Source: Thermogemmata fonticola (lineage in GTDB: Bacteria; Planctomycetota; Planctomycetia; Gemmatales; Gemmataceae). From it: a stretch of DNA of 64,000 bases. Below, piece by piece: positions 10,784-33,900 of the stretch. Every line of letters starts with the position of its first letter. Position 1 is the stretch's first letter. The translations under genes were made by a program, and so were the position numbers. Location: NCBI RefSeq assembly GCF_013694095.1, contig NZ_JACEFB010000007.1:62001-126000 (forward strand), in the 5' to 3' direction. Below the pieces are notes generated by a model, which worked only from the letters and a program-made list of their open reading frames with translations, was not told where the DNA came from and ran no database searches.

Positions 10784-10810
10784 AGTTAACCCTCCTCCCT
10801 ATTAACCCTC

Positions 10811-13219: not shown

Positions 13220-13629
13220 GATTCCTCTCCTTCCGTCAGTCCCTCGGCCTCGGCGAAGCGGTTGAGCCAGACGAGATACGCTAGCACCTCATCGGTCGCC
13301 CGGCGGAGAAAGTCGGAGTTGCCCTGGATGATCCGCTCCAGAAGGTCGTCCGGTTCACCCTTTCGAGGCGGGATGCGCGTCTTTATCCAGTCGCTCAGTT
13401 CGGCGAGCAGCCCCGGCGCGTAGTCTTTCGCCTTCAGGAATGCCAGGGCCTGTCCCAGGCCGGCGGCCAGAATGCGCGTCGGCAGCTTTTTGACCTGCCC
13501 GCCGAACTTCTTGGGGTCCTGCCTCTCATGCTGGTCTTGCTTCTGCTTGGCTCGCTGGACCGCATTCCAGGCATGGTTGGCTCGGCGCTGGTCGAGCGTT
13601 TGCGCGGAATCATTCGTTGTTTCTGCCAT
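13216..13629 (-). CDS. cmr5: Cmr5, small subunit of the type III-B effector
   Basis: 137 residues, mostly helical. The Cmr5 signature is clear: QVKKLPTRILAAGLGQALAF in the middle and RATDEVLAYLVWLNRFAEAE near the end. Cmr5 forms the helical belly filament beside Cmr4 in the Cmr complex. It starts 12 bp after cmr4 ends, and its stop overlaps the start of the cmr6-cmr1 fusion. Length is normal for the family. Confidence 0.9.
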   Translation of the reverse strand: MAETTNDSAQTLDQRRANHAWNAVQRAKQKQDQHERQDPKKFGGQVKKLPTRILAAGLGQALAFLKAKDYAPGLLAELSDWIKTRIPPRKGEPDDLLERIIQGNSDFLRRATDEVLAYLVWLNRFAEAEGLTEGEES

Positions 13630-13641
13630 GGCGCACTCTCC

Positions 13642-15719: not shown

Positions 15720-18301
15720 TCGTCCCTCCCGCGTGCCAAGAAGGAAGCGGACTGGCACAGAGTGAGAAAGTTCTCCAGCGCCTCCCCCGGTGAGGCAAAG
15801 CGGCGCCGGCTCGCTCCGTTCACCTCAACCGCTGAATCGCGCAACTGTTGGAACGTTTTGAGCAACTGATCCGGGGGAATGAGCCGAGGCGTGGGTTGCT
15901 CCGCGCGCTGGAGCTGCCGCCGCATCTCGGCCTGGATCGCTTCCGGGGGCAGAGCCGTCAGTGTCTGCCGTTCGGCATAGAGATGGTAAGCCCAGCGATC
16001 GGAAGCCCCCTGCAAGAAGGCATTTACCCAATCCTGGACCCTCTCCACAAAAGTCCAGGGGCAGACGGCGGTGGTGTGCTCCCCGGACCGACGACGGACG
16101 GTGATCGCCAGAGCATCCCGGCCCGCTTCCTTGGCCTGGTGTTCCGCTGCGCGGGCATCTTGCAACGCCAGCCGCAGGTTATCCGTGGCATGCACCAGGA
16201 CGATCCCGCCGGAAAGCGTCGCCCGCCATCCCATCATCAGGTATTCCCGGCCATTGTGGGTGTACCAGTCTGAGGTGTAGATCTGCTGGAGTTTCCGAAC
16301 GCAGGCCAGCACTGTGCTCACCGGCAGCAATGCCAGCGTGTCGTCACCGCCAGAGTAAATGACCGTGCCGTGATGTTTCGCGACGACATCGGGAACCACA
16401 TGCAGGGCGAAGTTGGTCAGAGCCGTGCTGATGGCCGCATGCAACGCCGGACCGACCGGACGCTTGGCATCGAGACCAGCTTTCGTGTGCGCTCCCAGCC
16501 CTTCGTAATAGCGCACCAGATCGGGGTGCATCACCTCGCGGACCTTCGGTGAGTTTTCGCCGCGGAGCCAGCCGCCGAGATTGTCGCCGTCGAGTTTGAG
16601 GATGGCGTAATAGATCGGGGGCTTGCCGTGCTGTTCTTTAGCCTTCTGGATTAGTCGAAACAAAGGTTCGGGGCACGGGGCGGTTTCTTCCGAGTCATAG
16701 TTAGGGGTAGGCCAGTGCAGCCAGCAGCCGTTCCAATCACGATGTTGTTTACGGACCTGGTCGGGGTCGATTCCCGCTTGACGAAGCCACTCAGCCGCAG
16801 CGACGGTCCAGGTATCCGGGAAGCGCAGATCGTCGGGCGAAATCTGCAACTCTTTGGCCAGCAGGGCCGGTCCCGCAAAGCGCTTCATCAGGGCCACAGC
16901 ACACAGACCCTCGCGCGGACGGATGCGCACACCGTGGATGTTTACCTTCTCAGCAGCCATGTCCCAGAATTGCCGAGACGCGGACAAATCATCCGGCCCC
17001 ATCTGCTCGAAGCTGCCTAGCAGCGTGCATTTTTGCGGGAAGCGTTCACCGGGAGTGATGGCTGGGTTCGGCGGCACATGGCGAATCGTGCGATGCGCAG
17101 CAAGCGAACGCTGGACCAATTCCACCTGATATTGCCAACGGCCGGCATGGTCCTGAGGGTAACCCGGTTGCTGATTCGGCGGAATGGCGCGGGCCAGGTT
17201 ACGGACCGCCTCAGCCTCCGGGAAAGCCTCTGCGAAGCTGCTTTGGCCCGCGAGCAAATCGGCCAGTCGGGTATCGACTTCCTCGGCCGAACCGCCCAGG
17301 GGCACCACTGCGGCAGCGAAGCTGAAGTAATTCTCGACCTGGTGTTGCCAGCGTCTATCCCAGTGTGCACACAAGCCGCTCAGCGGTTGGTCCAGGACAC
17401 CGTGCACGGCGTCCGCCAGCTCTCGCACCGCCTCTTTGGCCGCCTGCTGACATTCGATTGCTAATGCTTTGGCCTTAGCCCCGTTGGCTCCCCACGGCAC
17501 CAAGGCCAGGAAGCGATGGGGCAGCGACGGCGCCCGGCGCTGCTTGACCCCCGGTAATGGTACCTTGCTTTCCCCGAGCAACTTCGGTTGCCGCAGCCAG
17601 AGGTCCACCAGCGGGATGCCGCGCAGAGCGGGGTAGATGAACGCTGTCGGGCCGAACTGTTCCAGGATGGGCCGCATGGCCCGGAAGGCGAGCCAGGACA
17701 GGATCATACTCCCGGACCAGAGATCGCGGACCGTTCGCGCCGCCTCGATGAAGCGCTGGACTGGGCCCAACGCGAAGGCGAGCAAGGCCCGGCCGTGAGT
17801 GTCCTCCGTCGCTTGCAATCCGCTCGTAATGTCCAGGTGATGCCAGATCGTGTGATCCGGGGTGCGCGTGTCTGCGGGCAAGTGGGCGTACCACGGATGG
17901 TCCGCATCCGCCAGCCGTTCCAGAAAGAATCGCCACAAAACTAGGAATTGCCGTCGGCTGTCGTTCAGACCCTGAGTCAAGTTACGTACATGCTGGATGA
18001 CCCAGGCTTGATCGATGGTACCGACTTTCAAGTCCCGACGTTGGGCCGATAGCGGATGAAAGATCGTCAACGCTCCGTTCTGCGGAGCCACCGTGAGGAT
18101 GCGCCAATGCGGGGCGGGTAATCGCTCGACTTGGGACGCCAGGCTGTCCGCAAGATTCTGGAGTTGGGAGCTTTCTACCGGCTCATTTCGGGCCGCTTCG
18201 GCATACCGGCCTGCCCGCTCCACATGGCCGGGGATGTCCAGCGCCTTGTCCGGCGGGTCGTGCAAATAGGCCAGCAATACTGCATCCCAATCAGCACTCA
18301 C
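15716..18301 (-). CDS. cmr2: Cmr2/Cas10, cyclic-oligoadenylate synthetase subunit
   Basis: 861 residues, GTG start at 18301 with GGAGG seven bases upstream. An N-terminal HD-type motif (LLAYLHDPPDKAL ... PGH, residues 8-26) is present. The two Palm domains are visible: ILKLDGDNLGGWL (about 560) and the catalytic YSGGDDTLALLP (about 650). An intact GGDD motif predicts synthesis of cyclic oligoadenylates on target recognition, which would activate the CARF protein at the operon's end. It is the first gene of the operon. No cas6, cas1 or cas2 follows or precedes it in this window. Confidence 0.93.
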   Translation of the reverse strand: MSADWDAVLLAYLHDPPDKALDIPGHVERAGRYAEAARNEPVESSQLQNLADSLASQVERLPAPHWRILTVAPQNGALTIFHPLSAQRRDLKVGTIDQAWVIQHVRNLTQGLNDSRRQFLVLWRFFLERLADADHPWYAHLPADTRTPDHTIWHHLDITSGLQATEDTHGRALLAFALGPVQRFIEAARTVRDLWSGSMILSWLAFRAMRPILEQFGPTAFIYPALRGIPLVDLWLRQPKLLGESKVPLPGVKQRRAPSLPHRFLALVPWGANGAKAKALAIECQQAAKEAVRELADAVHGVLDQPLSGLCAHWDRRWQHQVENYFSFAAAVVPLGGSAEEVDTRLADLLAGQSSFAEAFPEAEAVRNLARAIPPNQQPGYPQDHAGRWQYQVELVQRSLAAHRTIRHVPPNPAITPGERFPQKCTLLGSFEQMGPDDLSASRQFWDMAAEKVNIHGVRIRPREGLCAVALMKRFAGPALLAKELQISPDDLRFPDTWTVAAAEWLRQAGIDPDQVRKQHRDWNGCWLHWPTPNYDSEETAPCPEPLFRLIQKAKEQHGKPPIYYAILKLDGDNLGGWLRGENSPKVREVMHPDLVRYYEGLGAHTKAGLDAKRPVGPALHAAISTALTNFALHVVPDVVAKHHGTVIYSGGDDTLALLPVSTVLACVRKLQQIYTSDWYTHNGREYLMMGWRATLSGGIVLVHATDNLRLALQDARAAEHQAKEAGRDALAITVRRRSGEHTTAVCPWTFVERVQDWVNAFLQGASDRWAYHLYAERQTLTALPPEAIQAEMRRQLQRAEQPTPRLIPPDQLLKTFQQLRDSAVEVNGASRRRFASPGEALENFLTLCQSASFLARGRDE

Positions 18302-18621: not shown

Positions 18622-20356
18622 CTAAGCTGGGATTTTGGCTTGAATTAGCCAGTAGGCCTGCCATTGACCCGATTGCTTGAGAGCCTCCAGGGCCATCACG
18701 GCCTCGGCGTTCCGGGCATCCCAACGCCGACCACGCCCCTTGAGCCGAGCCGTCAGCGTCTTGCAGCACGACTCCGTCGGACCGCTGCCCAACTGCCAAC
18801 CCTTCGCCACAAACTCCGGATAACGGATCATCTCCCGCCGCTCCCCCACATAGCCCAGCAACGCATCCGCCGCCTGCCGCTTCGCTCCCCGCAACCTGCC
18901 ACGCCAGTCGAGCAGCTTCGCCCAGGCCGCCTCGTAACCTTCGTGCTTGAAGGTGTGCAGCAACTCGCTCGCCCAACGCTGGCCGTCCTCATCCTCCTCG
19001 CCAAAAACCACACGGCGAGCCGCGTGCACATGCTCGGCCAAGTGGTAGAAATCCAACCCCAACGCGTCCAGCGGCAGGTTCTGCCGAGCCACCTGCTTGC
19101 GAATCCACGGCGCCCCATCGACAATGCCGATCTTTTCGTCCGCCAGGTCAAGGCGCAGCCGAACCGCCTGACGCCGCATCAGCCGTCCCGCCGCTTCGTG
19201 GTCGCCCTGGGTACCTTCCACCAGCCGATGCCGCCGCGTGTCGTCATAGTAGACGACCAGCTTGAACTCCTTGAAGGCCTGGTCGGCACCCGGTCGCAAC
19301 GGCGGCAGCGGCTTGGCCTTTTTGCCCCGCAGCTTACGCTTATGCTTGATCGTCGCCCGCCGTTTGCGCTTCTCCGCGTCCGTCACCAGCGGCACCATCA
19401 CCCCGTCGCAGCCAAAGTAAACCCGCGTCTTGGCCCGAGCCGACGCGGAAGACTTCGAGGGGGAAGCAGACGATGACGCTTTCGAGGCATTCGCTGGCGT
19501 GGCGGTGACAGTCGAAGCGTTCGCTGGCATGGCGGTGACAGTCGAAGCGTTCGCGGTCGAAGCGTTCGCTGGCGTGGCGGTGACAGTCGAAGCGTTCGCT
19601 GGCGTGGCGGTGACAGTCGAAGCGCTTGCGGTCGAAGTCGCCGCTGGCGTGGCGGTGACAGTCGAAGCGCTTGCGGTCGAAGCGTTCGCTGGCGTGGCGG
19701 TGACAGTCGAAGCGCTTGCGGTCGGAGCGTTCACGGTCGAAGTCGCCGCTGGCTCGGTCACGACGCAATCGGCGGCCGACCAGCCCGGTGTCAATGCCCC
19801 CGACTTCTGGGCGGCCAACACCTGCCGACCTTCCTGCTCCACCACCTGCCGCAACGTCTCCCGGCTCAACCTCAGCTGGGCCGCCCGCCTCAGATTCTCC
19901 GCTGCCGCCGCAAAGCTGGAACTGCCAGCATTGAGCCGACACACCAACTCCCGCACCCCCTGACTGATCGTCGCCTCCGCCACGTCCAGCCAGCGATCGA
20001 TCGGCGTCTGGGCACCCGTAGACGACTGCCAACGGATCCGCTTCAACCGCACCCGCCCGTTGACCGTCAGCACCGTGAACGACTGCCGCCCTTTCTGACG
20101 CAGCCGTTTACCGCTCGCGTCCGTCGGAGGGGGGAAAAGCGGCTTCCGCCGCATCCAGTCGCTTCTGCAGGGCCTTGGCGTAAACCTTTTCGCGGAACTT
20201 GGCGAAGGCGTCGCGGGCGGGTTCCTCGCTGTCGGCGATGATCCGCCCCGGCCGAGCGTGGTCGACGGCATCGGCCACTTTGGTCAGCAGCTCCTCGAAA
20301 TCGGCCCGCAACTCTTGCATCAGCTCGGCACGATTCAGTTTCGGCGTTGTGTCCAT
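18622..20356 (-). CDS. ISKra4-family transposase, two overlapping frames
   Basis: An 82-codon first frame starts at ATG 20356 (helical, ending AAEAAFPPSDGRER, stop at 20108). The long second frame (to 18622) is open through the overlap and continues FPPPTDASGKRLRQKGRQSF. The frames meet at T4C6 (read on the minus strand, 20138-20129), so a +1 slip would give one protein of about 570 residues, as described for some ISKra4 members. The catalytic part shows DEKIGIVDGAPWIRKQ, LGLDFYHLAEHVH and WQLGSGPTESCCKTLTARLK. A Ser/Thr/Ala-rich block (about 19490-19760) is inserted before the catalytic domain and consists of repeated STVTATPANA decapeptides. Confidence 0.82.
19490..19760. repeat. In-frame minisatellite inside the transposase
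   Basis: Units of 30 bp (encoding STVTATPANA on the minus strand) interspersed with 15-bp units (encoding STASA) repeat about seven times with few changes. All unit lengths are multiples of three, so the frame is kept. The same periodicity makes spurious open frames on the other strand. Confidence 0.8.
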
Positions 20357-20439
20357 AGCGAACTCCTTGAAACAACAGGAATGGGCTTATCTATTTTGCC
20401 ACAGCTCCCCAGCCAGCGCCAGATTTATTTGTCAGACCC

Positions 20440-20447
20440 GTCGGAGA
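20440..20447. repeat. Right 8-bp target duplication of the ISKra4-like element
   Basis: GTCGGAGA, identical to 18588-18595, directly outside the right inverted repeat. Confidence 0.7.
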
Positions 20448-20557
20448 GGAGCATGACCCACTCCTGAATGGCCGTAGCTGGGCGTAGACGTGGGGATAGG
20501 GGGGGACAGGACGCAGACCTGGGAGCTAGAAGAGAAGTTTGCCAGTTCCACCCGTTT

Positions 20558-20587
20558 GTGTACTCATGTCCACGGGAGTGTATCGGA
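20558..20587 (-). repeat. attL-like copy of the tRNA-Sec 3' end
   Basis: Positions 20567-20587 are identical (21/21) to 36543-36563, which cover the 3' end of the selenocysteine tRNA and six bases beyond. Extending to 20558 and 36534 adds GTGTAC in both copies, with three mismatches between. The copy lies on the side to which the tRNA 3' end points, as expected for the far end of an element integrated at a tRNA gene. The base sequence between 20448 and 20557 shows no gene. Confidence 0.8.
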
Positions 20588-20617
20588 TACCGAGGCGCCT
20601 TCCTGCTGGCTCTTTTA

Positions 20618-21467
20618 GAAGTCATCTCATAACTAGTTTCGCAGCAAGAGGAGGATGCAGGCAAGCTGCACGAAGCCGAGGTAGTTGACCCGATGGCGCT
20701 CGTAACGAACCACCAGCCGTCGAAAGTTGCTCAACCAGGCGAACAAGCGCTCGATCTTCCAACGCCGCTTGTAACGGCGCAGCTTACGGCCATCCTGGGT
20801 GCGTCGCTGGCGTCGGTTGCCCCGGTGGGGCGCAATCATCTCGATCCCACGTTCAGCCAAGCGGGTGTCCAGCGGGTCGCTGTCATAAGCCCGATCGCCG
20901 ATCCGTTTCCTGGGCTATTCGGGGGCGAAGCAGGCCGCCAGCGTGTGCTCAACGAGCGTCACTTCGTGCGGGCGAGCACTCGTGACGCCTACGGCGATCG
21001 GAAAACCAGTGCCGTCTGCCACTGCCATGAGCTTCGTCTCTTTGCCCCGCTGGGTCTTTCCCACTCCATCGCCCCCTTTTTCGCGACCCCGAAGGTGCCA
21101 TCGATGAAGCCCTCCTGGAGATCGAGGCCTCCCCGCCCCTTCCGGTCTTCCGTCAGGGCGTGCAGGATCGCCTCCATGACCCCTATCCTCATCCAACGCC
21201 GGAAGCGGCGATGGCAGCTCTGGTGTGGGGGATATCGCTTCGGCAAGTCTTTCCACGGCGCAGCGGTGCGCAGCATCCCCAAGATGCCGTTCAGCACCTC
21301 CCGCGGATTCCTCCCGGTACGGCCCCGCCTGCCCGTCGGGAGACGCTCCTCTTGGGGCAAGAGTGGCTCTAACACCGCCCACTGTTCGTCTGTCAGATCT
21401 ATCGCTCACCTTCATCATCGTAGTGATCATAGTGTACACCAGTCTCATGTATTTATGAGATAACTTC
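20618..21467 (-). mobile_element. IS5-type (IS427-like) insertion sequence, degenerate
   Basis: About 850 bp bounded by inverted repeats: GAAGTCATCTCATAA at the left and the complement of GAAGTTATCTCATAA at the right (one mismatch). TA lies outside each end (20616-20617, 21468-21469), consistent with a 2-bp target duplication. It contains one broken transposase gene. It lies just inside the left end of the island. Confidence 0.75.
20633..21375 (-). pseudogene. IS5-family transposase, interrupted
   Basis: The first frame (from about 21375) reads WAVLEPLLPQEE-like, then GRNPREVLNGILGMLRTAAP and a DUF4096-type region up to EGFIDGTFGVAKKG. It then passes to a second frame at A5G5 (minus strand, near 21072-21081), a usual frameshift site in IS427-group elements. 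The second frame continues GKETKLMAVADGTGFPI, VEHTLAACFAPE, and is stopped by an in-frame TAG at 20915-20917. The rest ([20 protein letters not shown] ... [20 protein letters not shown]) is open in the same frame to 20633. There is also no ATG at the expected start. The copy is therefore probably inactive. Confidence 0.8.
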
Positions 21468-21664: not shown

Positions 21665-23056
21665 ATGCTTTGTGAGGAAGAGCGAAGGCAGCTTGTCATG
21701 AAAGCTCGAGCAGCAGCAGCGCGAGCATTCATGACGTCGCCGGGGGGGACGGCTTACGGGGCAGCGGTACTGACAGTCTCGGGCAACGTTTACCAAGCGG
21801 GGCAATATTCCTCGTTCAATCACATGACGAATGTTCACGCCGAGCAGGCCGCTTTAGTCTTGGCCGTCATGGCTGATGATCCCGATGTGTTAGCCTTGGC
21901 TGTGGCCTCCACCGGTATAGAATCAGTCACTCGCCCCTGTGGAGTCTGTCGGCAAGTGTTTGCTGAGCACGTTGCTCGGGTGGGACGAGATTTCGAGGTA
22001 CTCATGGCTTGTCGAAATAGCGATAGTTACGAGGTGGCTCAAGTGAGTGAATTGCTTCCCTTCAGTTGGGTGTCGAACCAAGCTGGGGCGATTGAACAAG
22101 CGCCTGACATACGTGGGATACTCTCTCAATCCGGGTCCGTCCCGGCTGGACAACCCCTTCAAGCAGGTGACCATGTTGTGCTCCGCGATGGCAGCATCGC
22201 ACTTGTTTGGGATGGGGCATTTGAGCCGGACCGCGCCTTGGTCAAGGTCAAGTACATTCCAACGGATGGTAAACTTCGCAAAGTGCCCCATTCGCTTGCT
22301 GAGCCTCTTCAATACCAAAAGGAGATGCACGACTTTGGCCAGATCAGGCGAGCACGCTGCGGAGTAGGAGGCGCCTTCGTTGGCGAGGCGGACATAACAG
22401 CCGTATTCAAGATGTTACCACTTGGAGGTGCGCTCGGTGAACCACCTGGGCCGTTAGTGAACCTCCTTCGGGATGCAGGTGTGGATGTGTCTGCTGTCCG
22501 GGTAACGGGTTCACGGGCGATAGGACTGCAACGTGCTAACTCCGATTGGGATTTGGTGGTGCCCCTCGAGGTTGAGCCCCTGTCCATCGTTCGAGATGCT
22601 CTGGCAACAGCCGTTGAGCGCGGAGTGTTGACAGTTCCACCGCGCTCAGGTACCTGGAAGTTACTGGACCGGGTCTTTCCCGGCGGGCGAGAGGCACTGC
22701 TGCGTAGTCGCCGCTTTGTGGATACATTGCTGAGTGGTGAGGTGTCGATAGCATTGATCTTCGTGCCTCCCCAGTCACCCGATGTGTGCGTGGGTCTGGA
22801 CTGGCAGGGAGTTGGTCGAACGTTGCTCTATGGCCAAGTCGTTGACGCTGCCAAGGCGGTTTACAAACGGGCCGAATACCATTTGCAAGACGAGGAAGGC
22901 CTGGTTCGAGTGACCTGCTACCATAAACTGGCCAACTTGTTACGAAGCGGGGATGTGATCTCAGCTAGTGGCTGGCTCTTTCGGCGAGGCATGGAGCGGC
23001 GATTGATCCAAATCTTACCGTATCCCGATCGAATCATATGGTGGAGGGTCGCGTGA
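21665..23056 (+). CDS. Cytidine-deaminase-like domain fused to a nucleotidyltransferase-like domain
   Basis: 463 residues, ATG 21665 with GGAGGT just upstream. Residues 1-140 look like a tetrameric-type cytidine deaminase: NVHAEQAALVLA (HAE with the zinc His and catalytic Glu, about 58-60), RPCGVCRQVF (PCxxC, about 90-95), and the family's closing LLPFSW. After a beta-rich linker (about 145-230), residues 270-460 contain VRVTGSRAIGLQRANSDWDL, the GSR...SDxDL pattern of nucleotidyltransferases of the DNA polymerase beta superfamily. It is the first gene of a five-gene operon. An AT-rich TATAAT lies at 21598-21603, without a good -35. The combination is unfamiliar to me; the substrate is unknown. 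Confidence 0.78.
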   Translation: MLCEEERRQLVMKARAAAARAFMTSPGGTAYGAAVLTVSGNVYQAGQYSSFNHMTNVHAEQAALVLAVMADDPDVLALAVASTGIESVTRPCGVCRQVFAEHVARVGRDFEVLMACRNSDSYEVAQVSELLPFSWVSNQAGAIEQAPDIRGILSQSGSVPAGQPLQAGDHVVLRDGSIALVWDGAFEPDRALVKVKYIPTDGKLRKVPHSLAEPLQYQKEMHDFGQIRRARCGVGGAFVGEADITAVFKMLPLGGALGEPPGPLVNLLRDAGVDVSAVRVTGSRAIGLQRANSDWDLVVPLEVEPLSIVRDALATAVERGVLTVPPRSGTWKLLDRVFPGGREALLRSRRFVDTLLSGEVSIALIFVPPQSPDVCVGLDWQGVGRTLLYGQVVDAAKAVYKRAEYHLQDEEGLVRVTCYHKLANLLRSGDVISASGWLFRRGMERRLIQILPYPDRIIWWRVA

Positions 23057-23089
23057 AATCCCACAAACGTCCGAGGGTGGAGAACCAAC

Positions 23090-24346
23090 ATGTGCGATTG
23101 GTATCGCTTGAGTCGCACACACACCGAAGTCTGCCTTCGTTTCGTTCTTTCTGAGAATCGCTTTTGGCCTCCTGAGGTTATGCGGGACCATCCACTTCCT
23201 TGGTCGGAAGTGAAGGGGCTTCGTGTTACTCTAACCGGTCCCGGGGCCGTTTGGATGTACGCACATGCTGCGGCCACTTTCCGTGCAGCCGGCGCCCAAG
23301 ATATCTGTGTACAAACCCCGGCAAAATCAGGTTCTTCTGAGAACTTGAGTGGAAGTGAAAGCTTGCTCATCCTGGCTGGAGAGGACCAGAATCGAGGTGC
23401 TCTGCTTCGCATTTGGCTGAAGCCGGCGCCGCCATTGTCTCCGTCCGCGATCGATCGGCTGCTGACACCCCGGCTGGAAGAACTGTCTCGACTGCGTCCC
23501 GCCGAGTTGGTACTGAGCGGGCGGGCCACGGTGGGTGTTTATACCCAGACAGCAAAAAGCGCTATTGACAGCGGCATACGCCGGATTGCCTGTTGGTCGG
23601 CTCGCGATGGTCTGATTATCGTTTATGATTCTGATCGAGAACAATTGGGCCGCCAAATCGCACGTCCCGATTGGTTGGCACGAGCGATGCCGCGACCGGT
23701 CTGGCCGGTGATTATTGGCGTCACGGGTGATCCAAATCTTGGTAAATCGATCTTTTGCAATGTCCTGGATTCGTACATGCAACAAATTGGTTGCGACGGG
23801 TGGAGGCTCGACTGTGATGGGCAGTCACCCACTCCCCCGTGGTATTTCAGTCTCGTTGGAGATGAGGCAGCAAAAATACTTCGAGAAGAGTACAAGCGAA
23901 GTTGGACTGCGGAAATGGAAGCAATCATTGTTGACCAGTTACGGAGGAGTCGCGAGTTGTTTTCCGTATTGATCGCTGATTTGCCAGGTGGAAACCACAA
24001 AGTCACTCCTCCCCAACGAATCCCTCCCGGTCGCGAGCATATGTTTGCCGAGTTGGATGCGATCATCCTTTTGGACCGCCCGGAGGTGTCATCAGAAACC
24101 GCTTGGCGGCAAGCTCTTCAACCGTACGGTCTTGACAGGCGGATCGCTGCGGTTTTGACCTCTAAGGATCCTCAAGGTGCTCCTTCACTTTCCGTCAAGA
24201 AGGATGGGATGCTGTGGCGCGGTGAAGTGACAGGGCTGAACCGCTCGGCATCGCCGACAGAACTGGAACGCGCTTTCCGAGTTGGATTAGATGAGCTGTG
24301 GCAGCCTTTGTTGGACTTCGCACGCCGGAGGTCTGCAGATGCCTGA
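23090..24346 (+). CDS. Csx3-like domain(s) plus P-loop NTPase
   Basis: 418 residues. The N-terminal 200 residues hold two segments of similar layout, GLRVTLTGPGAVWMYAHAAA and AELVLSGRATVGVYTQTAKS. The second is followed by RIACWSARDGLIIVYDSDRE and QLGRQI. Together these resemble the small Csx3 fold (a ring-nuclease family of type III CRISPR). Residues 205-418 are a P-loop domain: GVTGDPNLGKSIFCNVLDSY (Walker A near 212-220), LIADLPGG (Walker B-like) and AIILLDRPE. It follows the deaminase fusion by 33 bp and overlaps the next gene by 8 bp. The P-loop call is firm; the Csx3 relation is a pattern-level inference. It might instead be a nucleotide or sugar kinase. Confidence 0.6.
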   Translation: MCDWYRLSRTHTEVCLRFVLSENRFWPPEVMRDHPLPWSEVKGLRVTLTGPGAVWMYAHAAATFRAAGAQDICVQTPAKSGSSENLSGSESLLILAGEDQNRGALLRIWLKPAPPLSPSAIDRLLTPRLEELSRLRPAELVLSGRATVGVYTQTAKSAIDSGIRRIACWSARDGLIIVYDSDREQLGRQIARPDWLARAMPRPVWPVIIGVTGDPNLGKSIFCNVLDSYMQQIGCDGWRLDCDGQSPTPPWYFSLVGDEAAKILREEYKRSWTAEMEAIIVDQLRRSRELFSVLIADLPGGNHKVTPPQRIPPGREHMFAELDAIILLDRPEVSSETAWRQALQPYGLDRRIAAVLTSKDPQGAPSLSVKKDGMLWRGEVTGLNRSASPTELERAFRVGLDELWQPLLDFARRRSADA

Positions 24347-25793
24347 CCATACGCAAAGCCTCTTGATCGCTGGGGTTGGTCCCCACGCTCGGCATTTTTA
24401 CCTGCCAGCTATCGCTACGCTAGGGTCACGCTATGGCGTCCGTCTCGCAGCCGCCATCGAATTGGAGGCAGGACGTGCTGCCGCTGCTAGTGCCCTATCG
24501 GCCAGTGGCCTAAATGCGGAAATACTCACCGTACAGCGCTTCGAAGCAGAAATGCCGGAGGAAACCCGGCAGGCCCTGGACGCTGTTGCCAACCGCTTAC
24601 GTCCTAGAGCACTGATAATTGCAACGGATCCGTTGTGTCACCGGCCTTATGTACTTTGGGCTTTACAACGCGGTATGGACGTACTGTTGGACAAACCGAT
24701 TACCACTCGTCGGAATGCTGTAAGCGATGTGAATGCAGCCCGGGACATCGAGAGGGATTTCGAAGAAATCTCGGCAGCTTGGCACACAGCTCGACGACAG
24801 CGCCCTATCGTCGTTTCCGTTTGTGCCCACCGTCGTTACCATCCCGGATTTGAGGAGGCAATTCGGATCGTTCAAGAAGTTTGCCAACAAACGGGTTGCC
24901 CAGTAACCAATATTTACGCATACCATGCGGACGGCCAGTGGCGATTGCCGGAAGAGATTCGCACTCAGGATCATCACAGTTATCACTCGGGCCATGGGAA
25001 GGCCTCCCATAGCGGCCACCATTTTTTCGATTGTGTGTATCGGTATTACCACGCTGGCACAGCTAGTGGCAAATCTGCGGACTCAATGACCGTCTACGCT
25101 TCCTTCGTGCAGCCGCGAGGCCTTCTACGACAATTGACTCGCCAAGATTACAAACGATTGTTTGGACCAGACTACGCCAACGCTTGTCCTTATAGCGACG
25201 CGGAGTTGGATAAACTGTTTCAAGATTTTGGAGAGGTGGATGTCAATGCAGTGATCACTTTTTCCAAGGAGGGTGTGGCGATTGGTCAGGCTTCCCTGAG
25301 TCTCTTACACAATAGTTTTTCGCGCCGGGGTTGGCTTCATCCTGCCGCTGACCTTTACAAAGGTAATGGGCGTGTCAAGCACGAACACCATCGTATTCAC
25401 ATCGGCCCCTTTTTGACTATAGCCATCCATTCTTACCAGGCGAAGTCGGACCACAGCTTCAGTGATGAGTCTGATTTGCAGCTTGGAGGTAACAATCACT
25501 TTGAAATCCACATCTTTCGCAACACCCGGATGATAGGAGGAAAGGAAGTTGAAGTAATCCACTTGGACCATTTGGCTGGATTCGACCGTTCACGCCTATA
25601 CATCGAGCAGGTCAAGGAGGGGGTTGTCGGTGAATTCTTTCGTTACATTGCTGGACAATTGCCCGAAGCTGACTTGCGCTCCCCATTAACCGATCATGCT
25701 ATTCCCGTGCGGATGATCTCGGCTGTCTACGAATCCCATGTCAAGGCACAACAAGGCGATAACCCAGTAATTGTCAAGCCACTGAAAAGGTGA
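24339..25793 (+). CDS. Gfo/Idh/MocA-family oxidoreductase
   Basis: 484 residues, ATG 24339 seven bases after GGAGGT and overlapping the preceding stop. The N-terminal Rossmann fold begins SLLIAGVGPHARHFYLPAI. The strand with ALIIATDPLCHRPYVLWALQ leads to VLLDKPITT, the EKP-type motif of this family (here DKP). A His-rich stretch near 215-235 (TQDHHSYHSGHGKASHSGHH) is unusual and may bind a metal. The C-terminal beta-sheet domain is longer than in standard family members (about 340-390 residues). Family members oxidise or reduce sugars and related compounds with NAD(P). Substrate unknown. Confidence 0.8.
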   Translation: MPDHTQSLLIAGVGPHARHFYLPAIATLGSRYGVRLAAAIELEAGRAAAASALSASGLNAEILTVQRFEAEMPEETRQALDAVANRLRPRALIIATDPLCHRPYVLWALQRGMDVLLDKPITTRRNAVSDVNAARDIERDFEEISAAWHTARRQRPIVVSVCAHRRYHPGFEEAIRIVQEVCQQTGCPVTNIYAYHADGQWRLPEEIRTQDHHSYHSGHGKASHSGHHFFDCVYRYYHAGTASGKSADSMTVYASFVQPRGLLRQLTRQDYKRLFGPDYANACPYSDAELDKLFQDFGEVDVNAVITFSKEGVAIGQASLSLLHNSFSRRGWLHPAADLYKGNGRVKHEHHRIHIGPFLTIAIHSYQAKSDHSFSDESDLQLGGNNHFEIHIFRNTRMIGGKEVEVIHLDHLAGFDRSRLYIEQVKEGVVGEFFRYIAGQLPEADLRSPLTDHAIPVRMISAVYESHVKAQQGDNPVIVKPLKR

Positions 25794-25796
25794 AAT

Positions 25797-27146
25797 ATGG
25801 ACGAGGTCTCCGGAATCCAAGCGGTGGCGTGGGGATTATTGGACGGCGGCGTTGAGCTAGTGACCGCCTATCCTGGCTTCCATGCCCATGATCTGGTCAG
25901 ACTCATGGGTGTTAAGACCTTCTCGGTAAACGAAAAGAATGCTTTAGCGGTCGCATGGGGGGCCAGCCTCGCAGGTATCCGTTCAGCGGCAATATTCAAG
26001 AACGTTGGCCTGAACGATGCAGCGGACCCCTACGTCAACATCTGCGTATTGGGAGTTCGGGCTGGCATGGTCCTGGTTGTGCTGGATGACATTGATGTCG
26101 AGCAATCTCAGATTCAGCAAGATTCCCGGTTCTATGCCGAATTCCCCTGCTCGGTGTGGTTGGAGCCGCGCTCCGTACAGGACGCCTATGAACTAGCATG
26201 GTCCGCACCAGAATTGTCCGAACGCCTGAGAACACTCGTAGTGCTACGCATAACCAATCTGTTGACACGGGCGGTTGGCTCCGTAACACGGCGATCCCCC
26301 ACCAGAAACCGGTTGAAGTGGTGTCGAGCACCCGAAGAGTGGGTGGCTCATCCTGTTTACGGGGAAGTTCAGCGAAGGCGTCTGGAAGAGCGACGGAAAG
26401 CTGTAGAGTGCTGGGTAGATGGGGCCTATCCTCAACCAAGCGTCTTTCGCAACGCGCGCATCCGAGTGACAGCCGGCATGGCAGCTTCTCTCACTGAAGA
26501 GCCTCCTGATCTATGTATTTACACGCTGCCACCACCACGTCTGTGGTTAGAAGCACTATCCGACTCTGCTGCCGATGTGATTGTCGAAGAGCATGGTGGT
26601 CCTTACTTGACCAACAAGATAGCAGCTTTCCTCGGGGCCCGTCGTGTTACGGCGAGTTTGATACGCCCCAACGTATCGCGACAATACCGTATTACGGATC
26701 GCTACGAGCCACTGTATGCTTTGCTGCGGTCTGTACCTCATCACGTCATCGTTGGGGATTTGGGCGGGCATACGTTGGACCCGCACCACACGGTGGACGC
26801 TTGCTTGTGTTATGGTTGTTCAGTGGGTGTGGCAACCGGAATAGCTTTGGCGGACCCGTCGTTACATGTCATTTGTGTGACTGGCGACGCTGCCTTCCTC
26901 CATTCTGGTAAGGCTGCCCTTGAAGAAGCCTTCACCCGCCGAGTTGCCATGACAGTAATAGTACTGGTTAATGGCGGAGCTGTAAGCACCGGGGGTCAAA
27001 GTGTGCCAGGCAACTGCCGGTTAGATGCAACGGAGTTGGAAAGTCACGACATCGACTTTCCCTCTTGTGGTCACACATCAACCCTGTCGGCTTGGTTGCA
27101 GCACCCTAGATCCCTCCAATTGATTCGCATAAAGACCCCATTTTGA
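25797..27146 (+). CDS. Thiamine-diphosphate-dependent enzyme (indolepyruvate/phosphonopyruvate-type)
   Basis: 449 residues, starting 3 bp after the oxidoreductase. The N-terminal pyrimidine-type domain has GLLDGGVELVTAYPGFHAHD and FSVNEKNALAVAWGASLAG, with the Glu expected to contact thiamine. The C-terminal PP domain has CYGCSVGVATGIALADPSLH, then VTGDAAFLHSGKAALEEAF and VLVNGG, the GDG...N-type ThDP site (GDA here). The arrangement resembles the alpha subunit of indolepyruvate:ferredoxin oxidoreductase without its iron-sulfur tail, or sulfo-/phosphonopyruvate decarboxylases in one chain. It probably acts on a 2-oxo acid. Which one cannot be read from the sequence. Confidence 0.78.
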   Translation: MDEVSGIQAVAWGLLDGGVELVTAYPGFHAHDLVRLMGVKTFSVNEKNALAVAWGASLAGIRSAAIFKNVGLNDAADPYVNICVLGVRAGMVLVVLDDIDVEQSQIQQDSRFYAEFPCSVWLEPRSVQDAYELAWSAPELSERLRTLVVLRITNLLTRAVGSVTRRSPTRNRLKWCRAPEEWVAHPVYGEVQRRRLEERRKAVECWVDGAYPQPSVFRNARIRVTAGMAASLTEEPPDLCIYTLPPPRLWLEALSDSAADVIVEEHGGPYLTNKIAAFLGARRVTASLIRPNVSRQYRITDRYEPLYALLRSVPHHVIVGDLGGHTLDPHHTVDACLCYGCSVGVATGIALADPSLHVICVTGDAAFLHSGKAALEEAFTRRVAMTVIVLVNGGAVSTGGQSVPGNCRLDATELESHDIDFPSCGHTSTLSAWLQHPRSLQLIRIKTPF

Positions 27147-27158
27147 AGGAGTGTCTAC

Positions 27159-27755
27159 ATGTACATCCACTTTGAGGGACTGGACCTGGCTGGCAAAAGT
27201 ACCGTTTGTCAGCATATTTGCCAACACGCGCAGGGTAAATGGCAAGTGCGTCGCAACGCACTAACCATCAATAACTCCATCTACGAATTGGCCGATCGGA
27301 TGCGAAGAGAGAAAATGGGTAATGAAGAAACGATCGGTTGGCTCTATTATGCGGCGTTACTCTTTGACCTAGAGCAATTTGAACAACCAGTAGGCAATAT
27401 CATCCAGGATTCCACTATTTTGCTGCGATCCCTGGCTTTCCACAAAGTACGTGGCACGTCGGGGTTGGTTGAACGCTTGGAAGCGCTCCTTGATCAACAT
27501 CCCCGGTTTGACCGATCGTTCGTTCTCGTTGCTAACCACCAAACGCGTATAGAGCGTTTGGCGAAGAGGCACGCCTGGGAGCTTGGTCCAGAGGACTTTC
27601 TGGTACGGGATGATCCAAAACGGTTCTACGCAATGGAGCACCACCTAGTGGATTACGCAACCCGGCACTTCGACGCAATAGTGTTGGACACCAGTGGCGA
27701 ATTAGATTTCTCTTGGTTGGAAAAAGTGGTTCAGCACTTGCCGAATCTGGGATAG
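27159..27755 (+). CDS. Thymidylate-kinase-like P-loop kinase
   Basis: 198 residues, last of the five-gene operon, 12 bp after the ThDP gene, with AAGGAG before the ATG. The P-loop is IHFEGLDLAGKSTVCQHI, matching the FEGxDGxGKST of dTMP kinases. The region IIQDSTILLRSLAFHKV stands where dTMP kinases have DRYxxSxxAYQ, so the DR motif is altered. A lid-like RIERLAKRH follows. Size is typical (about 200). It probably phosphorylates a nucleotide or a related molecule, and the altered motif suggests a substrate other than dTMP. Confidence 0.75.
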   Translation: MYIHFEGLDLAGKSTVCQHICQHAQGKWQVRRNALTINNSIYELADRMRREKMGNEETIGWLYYAALLFDLEQFEQPVGNIIQDSTILLRSLAFHKVRGTSGLVERLEALLDQHPRFDRSFVLVANHQTRIERLAKRHAWELGPEDFLVRDDPKRFYAMEHHLVDYATRHFDAIVLDTSGELDFSWLEKVVQHLPNLG

Positions 27756-28509: not shown

Positions 28510-30975
28510 ATGTTTCCTATTCTTTTTGTAATAGTTGGGATTACGATTTTTATAGTTGGGATTACGATTTTTATCATTTTTGGAATTATAATTCACAAAC
28601 GTAACAAGCAGTTAATGCGAATCAGTGTCGACGAGGCACAAAGCGAAGTGGCAGGAGTACAACACTATGAGGAAAGCCAGGAAACTGATCTGGGTACAAA
28701 AGAACATTGCCAGCAATCGAATACAAGGCCCTGTTATCAAGATGGTGACAATCTACAAAAAATCATGGAAGAATCTCATGATGTGGAAAAAGAATTCGTC
28801 ATAGCAAAAAATTTGCAAGAAAATATAATAGAAGAATCGCAATCAATTTCATTAGAGGAGATCCAACTAAAGACAGTTCTAGAATCACCAACAGGAGTCA
28901 CACAGGATCCCCAAGTGGCAATCGTGGCGGAAACTCAACCAACGGCGGTAGGAGAACTCTGCCCCCCCGTAGTCCAAGAGACTCAACCGACCATAGGAAG
29001 GGAAATGCAACTGCAGGTGGCGGGGCAGGAATCACCGCCATCGATAACGCAGAGAGCACAACCGACTTCAAAAAGTGAGCGGTTGGAACCTGCCGAAAGG
29101 GGAGGTAGGTCACGCGTCTCGATCCGAGATCCGAAGAAACGGCTAACAGCAAACCCTAAGCCCCGCACTCCGAAGCCCGAAATCGTTTGCTGGAAGAGAG
29201 AACGACAGTGGATACCAGCGGTAGAGGTGCCAGAGGAACTTCTTGAAAGTTCCGATTTAGCGGTGTTTCAAAATGGACAATCCCTGACCAAAGACGAATC
29301 AAGGGATGCCTGCTGGCACCTTACTCAGGTTACCGGTGAAGTAACAGTGCGGTGGAGCGAAGGTGAGAATGCTCGAGAGACCAAGGTCTCACTTGGCCAA
29401 GGGAATTACCTTCTGTTCAAACTGAGCAGTGACCAAAATTGGGGACGTCGTGTCCAATCCCCTTCCTCTGGGTCCTATCTTGTGACGGTTCCGGACGATT
29501 GGGAGCGCGACGAAGCATTGTCAGGGCCTCCACCAGTTACTCCAGAGTTTGTGTCCCTTAAGGACTATCGAGCGCATTTCTTCGAACTTGAGAGAGGTAG
29601 CGAGAAGAAGATCGCCTTTCGCACGTCTGAAGGCAAATCAGTCATCATTGAGTCGAAGGAATCACGATTCAAGCTCATTGGGAATCGCCTGCCCGCTGCA
29701 AGTGAGAATATCGGGCCTCTCTTTGGCGGAAATCCTCCCCAAATTTGCGCTATGGATGTCCAAGCGTGGAAAGATGTTGGGACAATTGTTGTAGGGGAAG
29801 AGGGCAGTGGAAAGGGAAGATGGCGCATGGCTTTCACCCCCGAGCAGGGATTGATTGAGCAAACTTTGCCTCCTGAAGTGGGTGAGAGAAAAGAAGGATG
29901 GTACTTTCTTAGATTTTACGACACGAACGGTGACCTTGTAGAGAGTCTGGATTTTAGATTCATCAGCGCTCTAAAAGAAATCAGGACCGATCGATTTTCT
30001 CCACTCCCCCTTGAAAATGGATATAATCCGGTATGTGTCACATTCCTCCATGACCCTGGTTGTGTTATCCATCTGGCTGACGGCAGTCTTAACGTCCAAA
30101 TTGAACGCCAGGATGACAAAACGATTCTGACTATTCCCCCTGATCCTACATGTGACAAAACACACTGGCATGTGGGGTCCCAAGGTGGGCCACAGGTAGA
30201 GGTGACCATCCTGGTAGAAAGGCTCTGGTGGGCGATAGGGGAGGAGAATCAAGAGCCAACGGAATGGAGAGACAGGCCTTTGACATTGAAGCGCGGGGAT
30301 TTCGCGGCCACTTCCAAGAAAGCACTCTGGATACGCTTCCCAAGATATCGTTGGGTAGATAGGATCCGTGTGGGATTCGAGCAAACGAAAGCTAGGACTT
30401 ATAATGTAATGGTAACGGCCAAAACAATCACTGTCCCACTTCGCGAATTCAGCGATTCCATAGTCATAAGAGATGGAACGGAAACATGCTCCTTAAAGGT
30501 GTGGATTAAACGTGATGACGATCTCACAGAGGGAGTCATTGCTGTTATCCCGGCGGTTCAGTTGACAGTCACGCCTGCTCCCGAACAGATGCAGTCAGCA
30601 CCCACACCATCTTGGGTCGGTCTCGGAAGAAAGAAAACCGCCGTCGCGAAAGCCGTCCTACGGGAGGGATCCGGTCCCATCAAGGTCAACGGGCAAAACA
30701 TATTAGACTACTTTGGGAAGGCTCCGGACAAAGCGAAACAGTTTTTAATGAAGCTGTTAGAGATGACCGATGTCCGTCAGGTACTGGCACGGATGGAAGC
30801 ATCTGTCAATGTAACGGGTAGCAATCCAACTACAACCAGGCAGGCCAAGGCAGTAGCCCATGCTCTAGCGCGCGCCTTGATGAGCTATAATCCGCATCTG
30901 AAATCCCTGTTGAAACGATATGGTTTCGGAGGAGTCAGAGTGAAGAGTAGCTTTGTCTTCCCTCAGGAGAGGTAG
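28510..30975 (+). CDS. Membrane-anchored beta-rich protein with ribosomal-protein-uS9-like C-terminal domain
   Basis: 821 residues. A very hydrophobic N-terminus (residues 1-30) contains the heptapeptide VGITIFI twice and is followed by HKRNK, giving a membrane anchor with the rest probably cytosolic. Residues 35-225 are low-complexity, rich in Glu, Gln and Pro. Residues 230-690 are beta-rich with no family I recognise. The last 115 residues (from W702) align along their length with ribosomal protein uS9: GLGRKKTAVAKAVLREGSGP, IKVNGQNILDYFG, LLEMTD, ASVNVTGS, QAKAVAHALARALMSYNPHL, LLKRYGFG. The basic SKR tail of true uS9 is missing. The gene ends 3 bp before a DUF1998 helicase gene. Starts further in, such as near 28616, would lose the anchor. 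Confidence 0.75.
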   Translation: MFPILFVIVGITIFIVGITIFIIFGIIIHKRNKQLMRISVDEAQSEVAGVQHYEESQETDLGTKEHCQQSNTRPCYQDGDNLQKIMEESHDVEKEFVIAKNLQENIIEESQSISLEEIQLKTVLESPTGVTQDPQVAIVAETQPTAVGELCPPVVQETQPTIGREMQLQVAGQESPPSITQRAQPTSKSERLEPAERGGRSRVSIRDPKKRLTANPKPRTPKPEIVCWKRERQWIPAVEVPEELLESSDLAVFQNGQSLTKDESRDACWHLTQVTGEVTVRWSEGENARETKVSLGQGNYLLFKLSSDQNWGRRVQSPSSGSYLVTVPDDWERDEALSGPPPVTPEFVSLKDYRAHFFELERGSEKKIAFRTSEGKSVIIESKESRFKLIGNRLPAASENIGPLFGGNPPQICAMDVQAWKDVGTIVVGEEGSGKGRWRMAFTPEQGLIEQTLPPEVGERKEGWYFLRFYDTNGDLVESLDFRFISALKEIRTDRFSPLPLENGYNPVCVTFLHDPGCVIHLADGSLNVQIERQDDKTILTIPPDPTCDKTHWHVGSQGGPQVEVTILVERLWWAIGEENQEPTEWRDRPLTLKRGDFAATSKKALWIRFPRYRWVDRIRVGFEQTKARTYNVMVTAKTITVPLREFSDSIVIRDGTETCSLKVWIKRDDDLTEGVIAVIPAVQLTVTPAPEQMQSAPTPSWVGLGRKKTAVAKAVLREGSGPIKVNGQNILDYFGKAPDKAKQFLMKLLEMTDVRQVLARMEASVNVTGSNPTTTRQAKAVAHALARALMSYNPHLKSLLKRYGFGGVRVKSSFVFPQER
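28531..28572. repeat. 21-bp tandem duplication in the membrane anchor
   Basis: ATAGTTGGGATTACGATTTT begins at 28531 and again at 28552. The period of 21 bp keeps the frame and doubles the heptapeptide VGITIFI in the anchor helix. Confidence 0.85.
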
Positions 30976-30978
30976 ACG

Positions 30979-33900
30979 ATGAACCCAATCCAGTTCTCGC
31001 AGCAGATAGAAGACAGATACTGTCATTACCTAAAGACGACTTTTTATTTCAAAGATCCCGCTTTCCGTGCATCCTTCGAAAAGGCGCTGAGATCAGGGCA
31101 TTTGAGCAAGGGACCGTACCTTGAAGCCACTCCGGTCTTCAGACGTGGTCAGACGCCGCGAGCCTTATTCCCAAGCCTCCTCGGATTTCAGCCCGATGAT
31201 GGATTCCTGAAGGCAGTGCATGGCGACAGGCCACTCTACCAGCACCAAGAACAAGCGATCCAAAGCGTTCTCAACGGGCGCAATGTAGTTGTTGCCACTG
31301 GCACGGGAAGCGGTAAGACTGAATCCTTTCTTTATCCGATCTTGCTCCATCTCTACCAGGAATTCCGAAAGGGCAAGTTACGCGAGGGTGTGCGTGCGCT
31401 CATTCTCTATCCGATGAATGCTCTGGCTAATGACCAGCGCGAACGTCTCGGGGAGATCTGTAAACGGCTTAAGGAGGTCAATTCGCCTTTCCGGTTTACC
31501 TTCGGGCAGTACATCGGAGAAACACCAGAAGATGAGAGTGACTCGCAACGCCAAGCGCGGGATCACATCGCAGAGCGGGACCAAAAGGGTCACTCCATAG
31601 TTGAAGACGGGCATGTGGTCCACGGGGAACTTGTCCTTCGGTCCGAGATGCGGAAGAGACTACCCCATATTCTCCTTACCAACTACTCAATGCTTGAATA
31701 TCTGTTACTCCGACCTGACGACAGCCCACTCTTTGACAACGGACGAGCTCGGTGGTGGACCTTTCTGGTGCTGGATGAAGCGCATCAATACCGCGGTTCC
31801 CGTGGCATTGAGATGGCGATGCTTCTGCGACGCCTTAAACAGAGGCTGAGAGAAGGTGGCCGCTCGGAACCGTTCCGATGCATTGCCACAAGTGCAACAC
31901 TAGGTGGTGGAGAAAGAGATAGAGCCGCAGTAGCCAAGTTCGCTTCAGACCTGTTCGGTGAAGAATTCCGTGAGGAGAACGTGATTCTCGGGGAGAGTGA
32001 ACCGATCCCCGAACCAAGCCCAGAAAGCCTCTCCCCTGGTGATTATCAGTTTCTTGCACAGGTGCTTCGCGAGGAAAATACAGAAGTCAGGAGCCGTCTT
32101 ACCGAACTGGCGACTAAACTCGGTGTGTCACTCCCGAGCAACGAAGACCCGCCGAAAATTGTTGGGAGGCTCCTTCAGCGTGACAGCCGCGCAACGGCTC
32201 TCCGCCGCTTCATCACAGGCAACCCTGCCGAAGTTCAGGTGATTGCCGATCAAATCTTTGGGGACTTACCGCAGGAGAAGCGGGCGTCTGCTCTGTCCGA
32301 GTTAGTTGAACTTCTCTTACAGGCCAAGGACCCTTTGTCCGATGCGCCTCTTTTTTCTGCACGCTACCATCTATTCCTCAGATCACTCGAAGGCGCTTTT
32401 GTCTCCTACTGGCCTCAGAAAAAGGTCTTCCTTGATCGTAAGGCTGGGGATGAAAAGCACCCAGCCTTTGAAGTTGCGCTCTGTCGGGAGTGCGGTCAGC
32501 ATTATTTTGTAGGCCAGAAAGATTTCAAGGGTGGCAGATTAGTGGAGGCGATTCGCGACCCAAGTGATGTAAATTTTGGGGCTACCTTCTTTCGGCCTAT
32601 TGAGAATGGAGAAAATGAAGGTGAGGAAAACGAAGGTGGTAAGGCCAGCGACGAGCAGGTATTTCATCTTTGTGTGCGATGTGGTGAGGCGTGGCGAGAA
32701 AAACCGCGGTGTGGGCATGATAACTTAATCCGGGTAGTCAAGGAAGAATCCCCAACGGATGAAGATAGGGCAGACCAACTGGCGAAATGTGGTGCGTGCG
32801 GCTATAGCGCTGCTGGTCGCGATCCCGTGCGGGAAGTAGTGCATGGCACAGACGGTCCCCACGCCGTGATAGCCACGACCCTTTACCAAAATCTGCCGGA
32901 AAACCGGAAGAAAGTACTCGCCTTTGCCGACGGACGACAAGAAGCTGCATTCTTTGCCTGGTATCTGGAAGACTCGTATAGAGATATTCTGAGCCGAAAT
33001 CTGATCCTGAAGGCAGTCCAACGGCTGAATCCTCACACCCAAGAGGGCTTGTCTTTGCGGGACTCGGCGGTGGGACTGCGTGATCTATTCCGGGAGAGGC
33101 AAGCATTCCCACCTGCTACAAGTGACCTAGAATTGCGTCGCGAGGCTTGGCTTAGACTCTACCGTGAGTTCCTCACCGATGAGCCAAGAATCTCCCTGGA
33201 AGGTGTTGGTCTGGTTCGGTGGTCGCTCAAATGGCCAGATTGGTTCAGGATTCCAGATGTTCTGACGAATCCTCCTTGGTCATTAAGCGAACGAGAAGCG
33301 CGCGACCTTGTGTTTGTATTGTTGGACACAATGAGAGCAGATAGGGCTGTCGAGGTGCGGACCGAAAGCGCTATCCCGCTCAGCTGGAAGGATCTCGATC
33401 TCCAGGCATCACAGATGCGATTTCGTATCGGAGATCCCAAAGGGAAGAAGGGCGTGCGCAGTTGGGATGGTAAGAGAGGGAAACGCGCCCGGTTCTTGGC
33501 TAAACTTCTCATGAGGCTGCAAAACGGTGTTTCGGAACAAGAAACCATCGAGAAAGCTGTGGAGGCTTTGAGGTCAATATGGGAAACGTTACAGCAGTGT
33601 GACGCTACTGTCTCTTCGAATGACCGCTTATTGCTCGCGGTGGATGATGCTCGAAGGCTGAATCCTGATTGGTGGAGACTCCATCTCATCACCGATAACG
33701 ACACAATTTTTCAATGTGACACGTGCGGCCGTCTCCAGGCGGTCTCGGTCCGCGGGGTCTGTCCAAGGCATCATTGCCCTGGAACGCTCAAAGAGGTTCG
33801 GGTGACCGATTTGGAACCCAACCACTATCGGCTCCTCTATACGGAGGACTTGCCAGGTTCCTTACGTGTAGAAGAGCACACGGCGCAGCTTGATAAGGAA

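Follow-up and report, generated by a model that had tools for sequence, protein, structure and literature searches.

A 64,000-nucleotide stretch of the genome of Thermogemmata fonticola, a Gemmataceae-type planctomycete (contig NZ_JACEFB010000007.1, positions 62,001–126,000; hereafter the window), contains an operon of five genes at 21665–27755 that is very probably linked to type III CRISPR. The genes encode, in order, a cytidine deaminase-nucleotidyltransferase fusion, a protein with two Csx3-like domains and a P-loop kinase domain, a Gfo/Idh-type oxidoreductase, a thiamine diphosphate (ThDP) enzyme and a thymidylate-kinase-like protein. There is good support for reading it as a type III CRISPR accessory module that has been conserved, and not as an accident, because its core recurs beside type III cas genes and all five genes are found in a Lentisphaerae genome.

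The operon and the type III-B locus

The five open reading frames (ORFs) are all on the + strand and each is unbroken (21665–23056, 23090–24346, 24339–25793, 25797–27146 and 27159–27755), with gaps of 33, −8, 3 and 12 bp between successive genes. The first ATG in the ORF of gene 3 is at 24291, and the start at 24339 gives the 8-bp overlap with gene 2. An earlier description, made from the letters alone (the sequence-only reading), had proposed this layout, and re-reading of the ORFs bears it out. Profile searches concur with its naming of the products: deaminase-nucleotidyltransferase, Csx3-AAA, Gfo/Idh, ThDP enzyme of the IorA type, and thymidylate-kinase-like. It had also placed the operon in a mobile island, and there are transposase-like ORFs at 18622–21448 on the − strand (UPF0236, E = 2e-7; weak DDE_Tnp_1).

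A type III-B Cmr locus is found on the opposite strand, 3.4 kb upstream of the operon, with the transposase genes between them. It encodes Cas10/Cmr2 with HD and GGDD motifs (15716–18301), Cmr3 (14571–15758), a RAMP protein that is probably Cmr4 (13642–14583; PF03787, E = 9e-21, matching G000:C7:75669–76511, window 13669–14511), a Cmr6-Cmr1 fusion (10811–13219) and a CARF7 protein of the APE2256/DUF2103 type (9719–10783). RAMP genes occur in only two places in this genome, on contigs C1 and C7, so a distance of a few kb between the operon and one of them is improbable as a coincidence. The sequence-only reading had guessed at an antiviral or a metabolite role; the antiviral side of that guess is favoured, but the type III context (9719–18301) had been overlooked. 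With this context the general guess becomes a specific hypothesis, that of an accessory module triggered by a Cas10 signal.

Recurrence of the module in other genomes

A search for the same neighbourhood elsewhere, suggested along with the sequence-only reading, found that the homologues do co-occur, and the whole set recurs in one other genome; the reading of the five genes as a coherent operon holds. The gene 1 family was found in seven genomes including that of the window; the other six are SKYG27, SKYG125, and one each from the Lentisphaerae, Kiritimatiellae, Treponema and Chloroflexi. All seven loci come from draft or metagenome-assembled genomes, and several stop at contig ends. Type III-B or III-D cas genes adjoin the module in all five of the other genomes with enough flanking sequence, in the Lentisphaerae across one contig gap.

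In SKYG27 (Gemmatales), genes for a type III RAMP, a CARF-RelE protein and Csx15 are followed by gene 1, gene 2 and, where the contig stops, the beginning of gene 3. SKYG125 (G001), a metagenome-assembled genome from the Gemmataceae and from the window's genus, has two III-D Cas7 genes, Csx19, gene 1 and gene 2, with a Cas10 gene upstream. The Kiritimatiellae locus runs Cas10, Cmr3, Cmr4, Cmr5, Cmr6, Cmr1, Csx1, CARF-RelE, a fused gene 2-gene 1, gene 5 and a histidine phosphatase gene; that of the Chloroflexi runs Cas10, III-D Cas7s, Cas6, a CRISPR array of 29 repeats, gene 2, gene 1 and a pyruvate phosphate dikinase (PPDK)-like gene. On a 4.9 kb contig of Treponema, a fused gene 2-gene 1 precedes a fusion of histidine phosphatase and PPDK-like protein.

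The Lentisphaerae genome has all five genes at a III-D locus, in an order unlike that of the window and with identities from about 34% (gene 2) to 47%. III-D cas genes, a CARF-like protein and gene 2 are on contig C398, which breaks off within gene 3 after its first part; the final part of gene 3 opens contig C347 and is followed by genes 4, 5 and 1 and an HD_4 hydrolase. The pair of contigs is most simply read as one locus split inside gene 3, a join that we infer.

Genes 1 and 2 are the core of the module, since they are present in all seven loci and fused in two of them (Treponema and Kiritimatiellae). Gene 5 is found in three loci (window, Lentisphaerae and Kiritimatiellae), and genes 3 and 4 in two, with gene 3 also beginning in SKYG27. 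Other companions of the core are a histidine phosphatase (two loci), a PPDK-like protein (two) and an HD hydrolase (one). The PPDK-like proteins are ATP-grasp proteins resembling PPDK and phosphoenolpyruvate synthase, encoded downstream of the core (L047, 2850–4934; L049, 11385–13532). As judged by motif, every Cas10 found has a cyclase site, which is GGDD in the window, SKYG125, Kiritimatiellae and Chloroflexi and AGDD in Lentisphaerae. In a mirror-tree comparison over six loci, the identities between pairs of gene 1 proteins correlate with those between pairs of gene 2 proteins (r = 0.85), which shared species history could also yield and which is given no weight.

The module is very rare: no further gene 1 fusions were found among the genomes sampled, ca. 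390 from Planctomycetota, 388 from the phylum of the Kiritimatiellae, 400 from that of the Chloroflexi, 198 from the class of the Lentisphaerae and 276 from the phylum of Treponema. Viral contigs had no relatives of gene 2, gene 3 or the gene 1 family, plasmids none of genes 1, 2 or 5, and phages none of gene 5.

Gene 2: tandem Csx3-like domains and a P-loop kinase

Gene 2 (23090–24346, + strand) encodes two Csx3-like domains in tandem (residues ~1–110 and ~112–195) and a SIMIBI-like P-loop NTPase/kinase, an arrangement of the Csx3-prime type. It matches Csx3-AAA of PADLOC at E = 5e-7, and Csx3-AAA models match all ten members of its family; models of Csx3 only match at most five of the ten. 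The Csx3 membership is drawn from these profile matches, which are of modest score. AfCsx3 (3wzg) is the top match of the domain profile in the PDB, sub-significant at E = 0.05. In the structure model (mean predicted local distance difference test score, pLDDT, 88), every Foldseek/VIA match falls on the P-loop part, leaving the Csx3 fold structurally unconfirmed. The P-loop part has a fold of the SIMIBI type (Z up to 12.8), with dethiobiotin synthetase, HypB, CTP synthetase and MinD types tied, and the family conserves the motifs GDPNxGKS (P-loop), DLPGG and W..DCD..SPTP.WY.

The ring-nuclease residues of AfCsx3 are H57, H60, D69, R71 and H80, of which H60 and D69, with R71 and H80, are essential (PMC7371418). 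In an alignment to AfCsx3 that is itself sub-significant, neither Csx3 domain of gene 2 has conserved equivalents of the histidines or of D69. The loop equivalent to S44-G45-R46, which contacts cyclic tetra-adenylate (cA4), reads [STG]G[RKQ] in domain 2 in nine of ten members and G-x-[GA] in domain 1. Judged from its residues, the pair is one that has lost the nuclease site and kept a putative, SGR-like cA4 loop. Fusions of Csx3 to a kinase or AAA-type domain are known type III accessories of unknown function (PMC7371418, PMC12409355). Gene 2 shares with Csx3-prime/Csx3-AAA (Crn3 with a kinase-like domain) the joining of Csx3 to a P-loop domain and a location near type III loci, but differs from it in having two Csx3 domains, in the loss of the ring-nuclease residues, and in being in an operon with, or fused to, a deaminase-nucleotidyltransferase.

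Related genes occur in other settings. The window's own genome has a second tandem-Csx3 P-loop gene (L021, 8860–10119; G000:C5:174872–176113) beside transporter genes, with no RAMP gene near. Genome G012 (L022, 10243–17895) has a Csx3-P-loop gene 61% identical to gene 2, near genes for a CalpL-like CARF-Lon protein and Cas10d and without gene 1, and G024 (L027, 3532–5093 and 13012–14321) has a frame-broken one, with a CRISPR array (about 21 repeats) some 8 kb away. Gfo/Idh genes adjoining Csx3-P-loop genes in G040 and G041 were rejected as parts of the module; the setting is ordinary and chromosomal, and the Gfo/Idh is a different one.

Gene 1: a deaminase-nucleotidyltransferase-OB protein

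Gene 1 (21665–23056, + strand) encodes a cytidine deaminase (CDA) domain (~1–137), a beta-rich middle region, a pol-beta-type nucleotidyltransferase (~265–370) and a C-terminal OB fold (~380–463), the last as predicted in a structure model of mean pLDDT 82. The deaminase domain matches TIGR01354 at E = 7e-13 and, using the family profile, CDAs in the PDB at E = 1e-19; its zinc motifs H58-A-E60 and P91-C-G-V-C95 are invariant in all seven members. The nucleotidyltransferase part matches PF01909 weakly (E = 0.004). Its motif is GSR..SDxD in six of the seven members and ASR in that of Treponema, with AS in place of GS, so that the pattern S-R..G..SD.D is invariant. The strand expected to hold the third carboxylate has no acidic residue, and a conserved D/E at 353 precedes that strand. 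Neither the middle region nor the nucleotidyltransferase part had a structural match among the Foldseek/VIA matches listed. A stand-alone deaminase 51% identical to this domain is encoded in a Planctomycetota metagenome-assembled genome (L050, 7446–7940), opposite a kinase-like ORF of 1030 amino acids.

Genes 3, 4 and 5

Gene 3 (24339–25793, + strand) encodes the Gfo/Idh-type oxidoreductase (PF01408, E = 4e-8); the Lentisphaerae orthologue is 43–47% identical, and the start of an orthologue is present in G038. More distant relatives (~36%) are found on plasmids of Streptomyces, Kitasatospora and Embleya (L061–L066) in one conserved cluster, together with a CoA ester lyase, MaoC, GNAT, phosphotransferases, oxidoreductases of the Ldh and LLM families and a PIG-L deacetylase; this is probably a biosynthetic cluster.

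Gene 4 (25797–27146, + strand) encodes a ThDP enzyme resembling the alpha subunit of indolepyruvate ferredoxin oxidoreductase (IorA). It matches TIGR03336 at E = 2e-57, is 45% identical to the Lentisphaerae orthologue and retains the ThDP motif pattern. It aligns with the ThDP parts of IorA, but its 449 amino acids have no match to a ferredoxin domain in Pfam, there is no IorB partner within the operon, and its score of 194.9 bits is far under the family cut-off of 650.9. No relatives occur in the 101 further genomes of the order, which points to a foreign gene, probably acquired horizontally. Matches to gene 4 on Bacteroidota plasmids were rejected as relatives of the module, being ordinary IorA-IorB.

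Gene 5 (27159–27755, + strand) encodes the thymidylate-kinase-like P-loop kinase (TIGR00041, E = 7e-5), with orthologues in the Lentisphaerae (45%) and Kiritimatiellae (37%), and retains the GxxxAGKST and QDST motifs.

Proposed role and alternatives

The Cas10 family makes cyclic oligoadenylate. A Csx3 pair free of cutting residues, an attached kinase, and a Cas10 whose cyclase motif is intact together suggest an enzyme gated by that messenger. The optional partners of the core are all predicted enzymes of nucleotides, phosphate or keto-acids/sugars, and the simplest joint reading is that the messenger triggers the making or remodelling of a nucleotide. In this scheme the Cmr complex would recognise invader RNA and Cas10, known here from its GGDD motif alone, would then make cyclic oligoadenylate. 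The tandem Csx3 domains would bind the signal as a pseudo-dimer within one chain and switch on the P-loop kinase, which together with the gene 1 protein would start a nucleotide-modifying pathway. Remodelling or extending the base, the sugar or some side group may be the task of the Gfo/Idh and ThDP enzymes, and phosphorylation of the product to the di- or triphosphate that of the thymidylate-kinase-like protein. The outcome would be a nucleotide, perhaps of the pyrimidine type, that is antiviral or toxic to the cell itself and blocks phage replication or halts the host cell. Taken whole, the scheme is tentative and its chances are put at slightly under even; we infer the ligand, the activation, the substrate, the order of reactions, the product and the antiviral effect. 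The stronger form, a pathway of biosynthesis guided by RNA and triggered by Cas10 whose modified nucleotide would itself be the small-molecule antiviral, as opposed to the action of nucleases or to depletion, is more doubtful.

Several observations weigh against the scheme. Only seven loci are known, and genes 3–5 are missing from some of them; SKYG125 has genes 1 and 2 only, with no homologue of gene 3 or 4 in the genome, and the chemistry may vary between loci. The Treponema contig is devoid of cas genes, and the genome that it belongs to yielded no RAMP. Proteins like that of gene 2 are found away from cas genes too (G000:C5:174872). The enzyme activities and the ligand are predictions.

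The strongest alternative, though an unlikely one, is a type III accessory module that acts on RNA, and it owes this place to the OB fold of gene 1. The gene 1 protein would be an RNA or tRNA enzyme, carrying out C-to-U deamination, nucleotide addition or both, with an AspRS-like OB fold as a guide; gene 2 would switch it, and the remaining genes would make or use the modified residue. The best matches of the OB fold are the anticodon-binding domain of AspRS and the domains of RPA and SSB (Z 9.4–9.9), nucleic-acid binders that suit an RNA substrate equally well and so also count against the nucleotide scheme. The deaminase fold matches both free-cytidine deaminases and yeast CDD1, which edits C to U. 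The residues aligned to N42 and E44 of the Bacillus subtilis CDA, which we take to be ribose contacts in free-cytidine enzymes, are replaced by Q/H and S/A. However, the OB-fold matches are tied and generic, and Gfo/Idh, ThDP and thymidylate-kinase-like enzymes work on small molecules.

Depletion of pyrimidine nucleotides on a type III signal is somewhat less probable again. The deaminase, with its motif intact, would destroy (d)CTP or its precursors, fed by the kinases and phosphatases, and the phosphatase and HD hydrolase partners would fit. There is a precedent in Cad1, a CARF-adenosine deaminase that converts ATP to ITP (PMC11645235) and is the only deaminase effector found in the open-access literature. 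Both are deaminases in a type III accessory set, but Cad1 joins CARF to an amidohydrolase in one chain, whereas gene 1 has a deaminase of the CDA superfamily, no CARF match in profile searches, a fused nucleotidyltransferase and OB fold, and several partner enzymes. Depletion would have no need of the Gfo/Idh, ThDP or nucleotidyltransferase parts, yet these are kept across phyla.

It is likewise quite improbable that the module is no effector and instead converts, caps or destroys the messenger made by Cas10, as an off-switch or re-coding device. Csx3 family members act as ring nucleases (PMC7371418), a nucleotidyltransferase and a deaminase could modify a nucleotide messenger, and CARF proteins are already present at the window, SKYG27, Kiritimatiellae and Lentisphaerae loci, with Csx15 also at SKYG27. 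Against this, both Csx3 domains are without the ring-nuclease residues, and three of the enzymes (Gfo/Idh, ThDP and thymidylate-kinase-like) would be superfluous for removing a messenger. A chance neighbourhood, in which a transposon-rich island has simply picked up metabolic genes, is very unlikely indeed. The nearby transposases, and the Streptomyces plasmid clusters that have gene 3 relatives but no other module genes, could be cited for it, but it is contradicted twice: the five genes recur at a type III locus of a second phylum, where their order differs, and genes 1 and 2 are fused in members of two phyla.

The sequence-only reading knew of no described system with these five genes, and none was found: the open-access literature on type III CRISPR with cytidine deaminase, thymidylate kinase or nucleotidyltransferase does not describe this set, and the main text of a 2024 survey of type III systems mentions neither a deaminase nor a nucleotidyltransferase (PMC11229360). 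Signalling by an S-adenosylmethionine-AMP conjugate (SAM-AMP) also links type III CRISPR to unusual nucleotide chemistry, but there Cas10 itself makes the conjugate and there is no deaminase, ThDP or Gfo/Idh module (PMC10600005). Viperin with CMPK2, which yields the modified nucleotide ddhCTP (3'-deoxy-3',4'-didehydro-CTP), shares the idea of an antiviral nucleotide and a kinase of the thymidylate kinase family (PMC10058120); this is an analogy only, and profile searches found no radical-SAM enzyme among the five module proteins.

Most known type III effectors act by cleaving nucleic acids or proteins, by making holes in membranes or by using up a metabolite. If the nucleotide scheme is right, a multi-enzyme module adds nucleotide biosynthesis or remodelling to this repertoire, and the long-unexplained Csx3-kinase fusions gain a concrete, testable role. 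Some CRISPR systems may then answer infection by making or altering a nucleotide, beyond the cutting of nucleic acids.

Other features of the window and its genome

At this genome's other group of type III RAMP genes (L080; G000:C1:594465–600568), the 20 kb covered contain no module genes. Searches found no CRISPR array inside the window, across the 20 kb on its left side or at the C1 type III locus. Tandem repeats of 30/45 bp at 19482–19742, inside a transposase-like ORF, mimic an array in simple scans and are not one.

On the other side of the operon is a gene for a DruE-like (Druantia) helicase of 1576 amino acids (30979–35709, + strand). It is preceded by 3 bp by a gene for an 821-amino-acid protein (28510–30975, + strand) with a C-terminal match to ribosomal protein S9 (PF00380, E = 2e-15), and the two are possibly a new Druantia-like pair. 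Further along, at 38957–41941 (+ strand), a NosD-like beta-helix protein is encoded, with a tandem repeat of 138 bp in 7.6 copies (90% matches).

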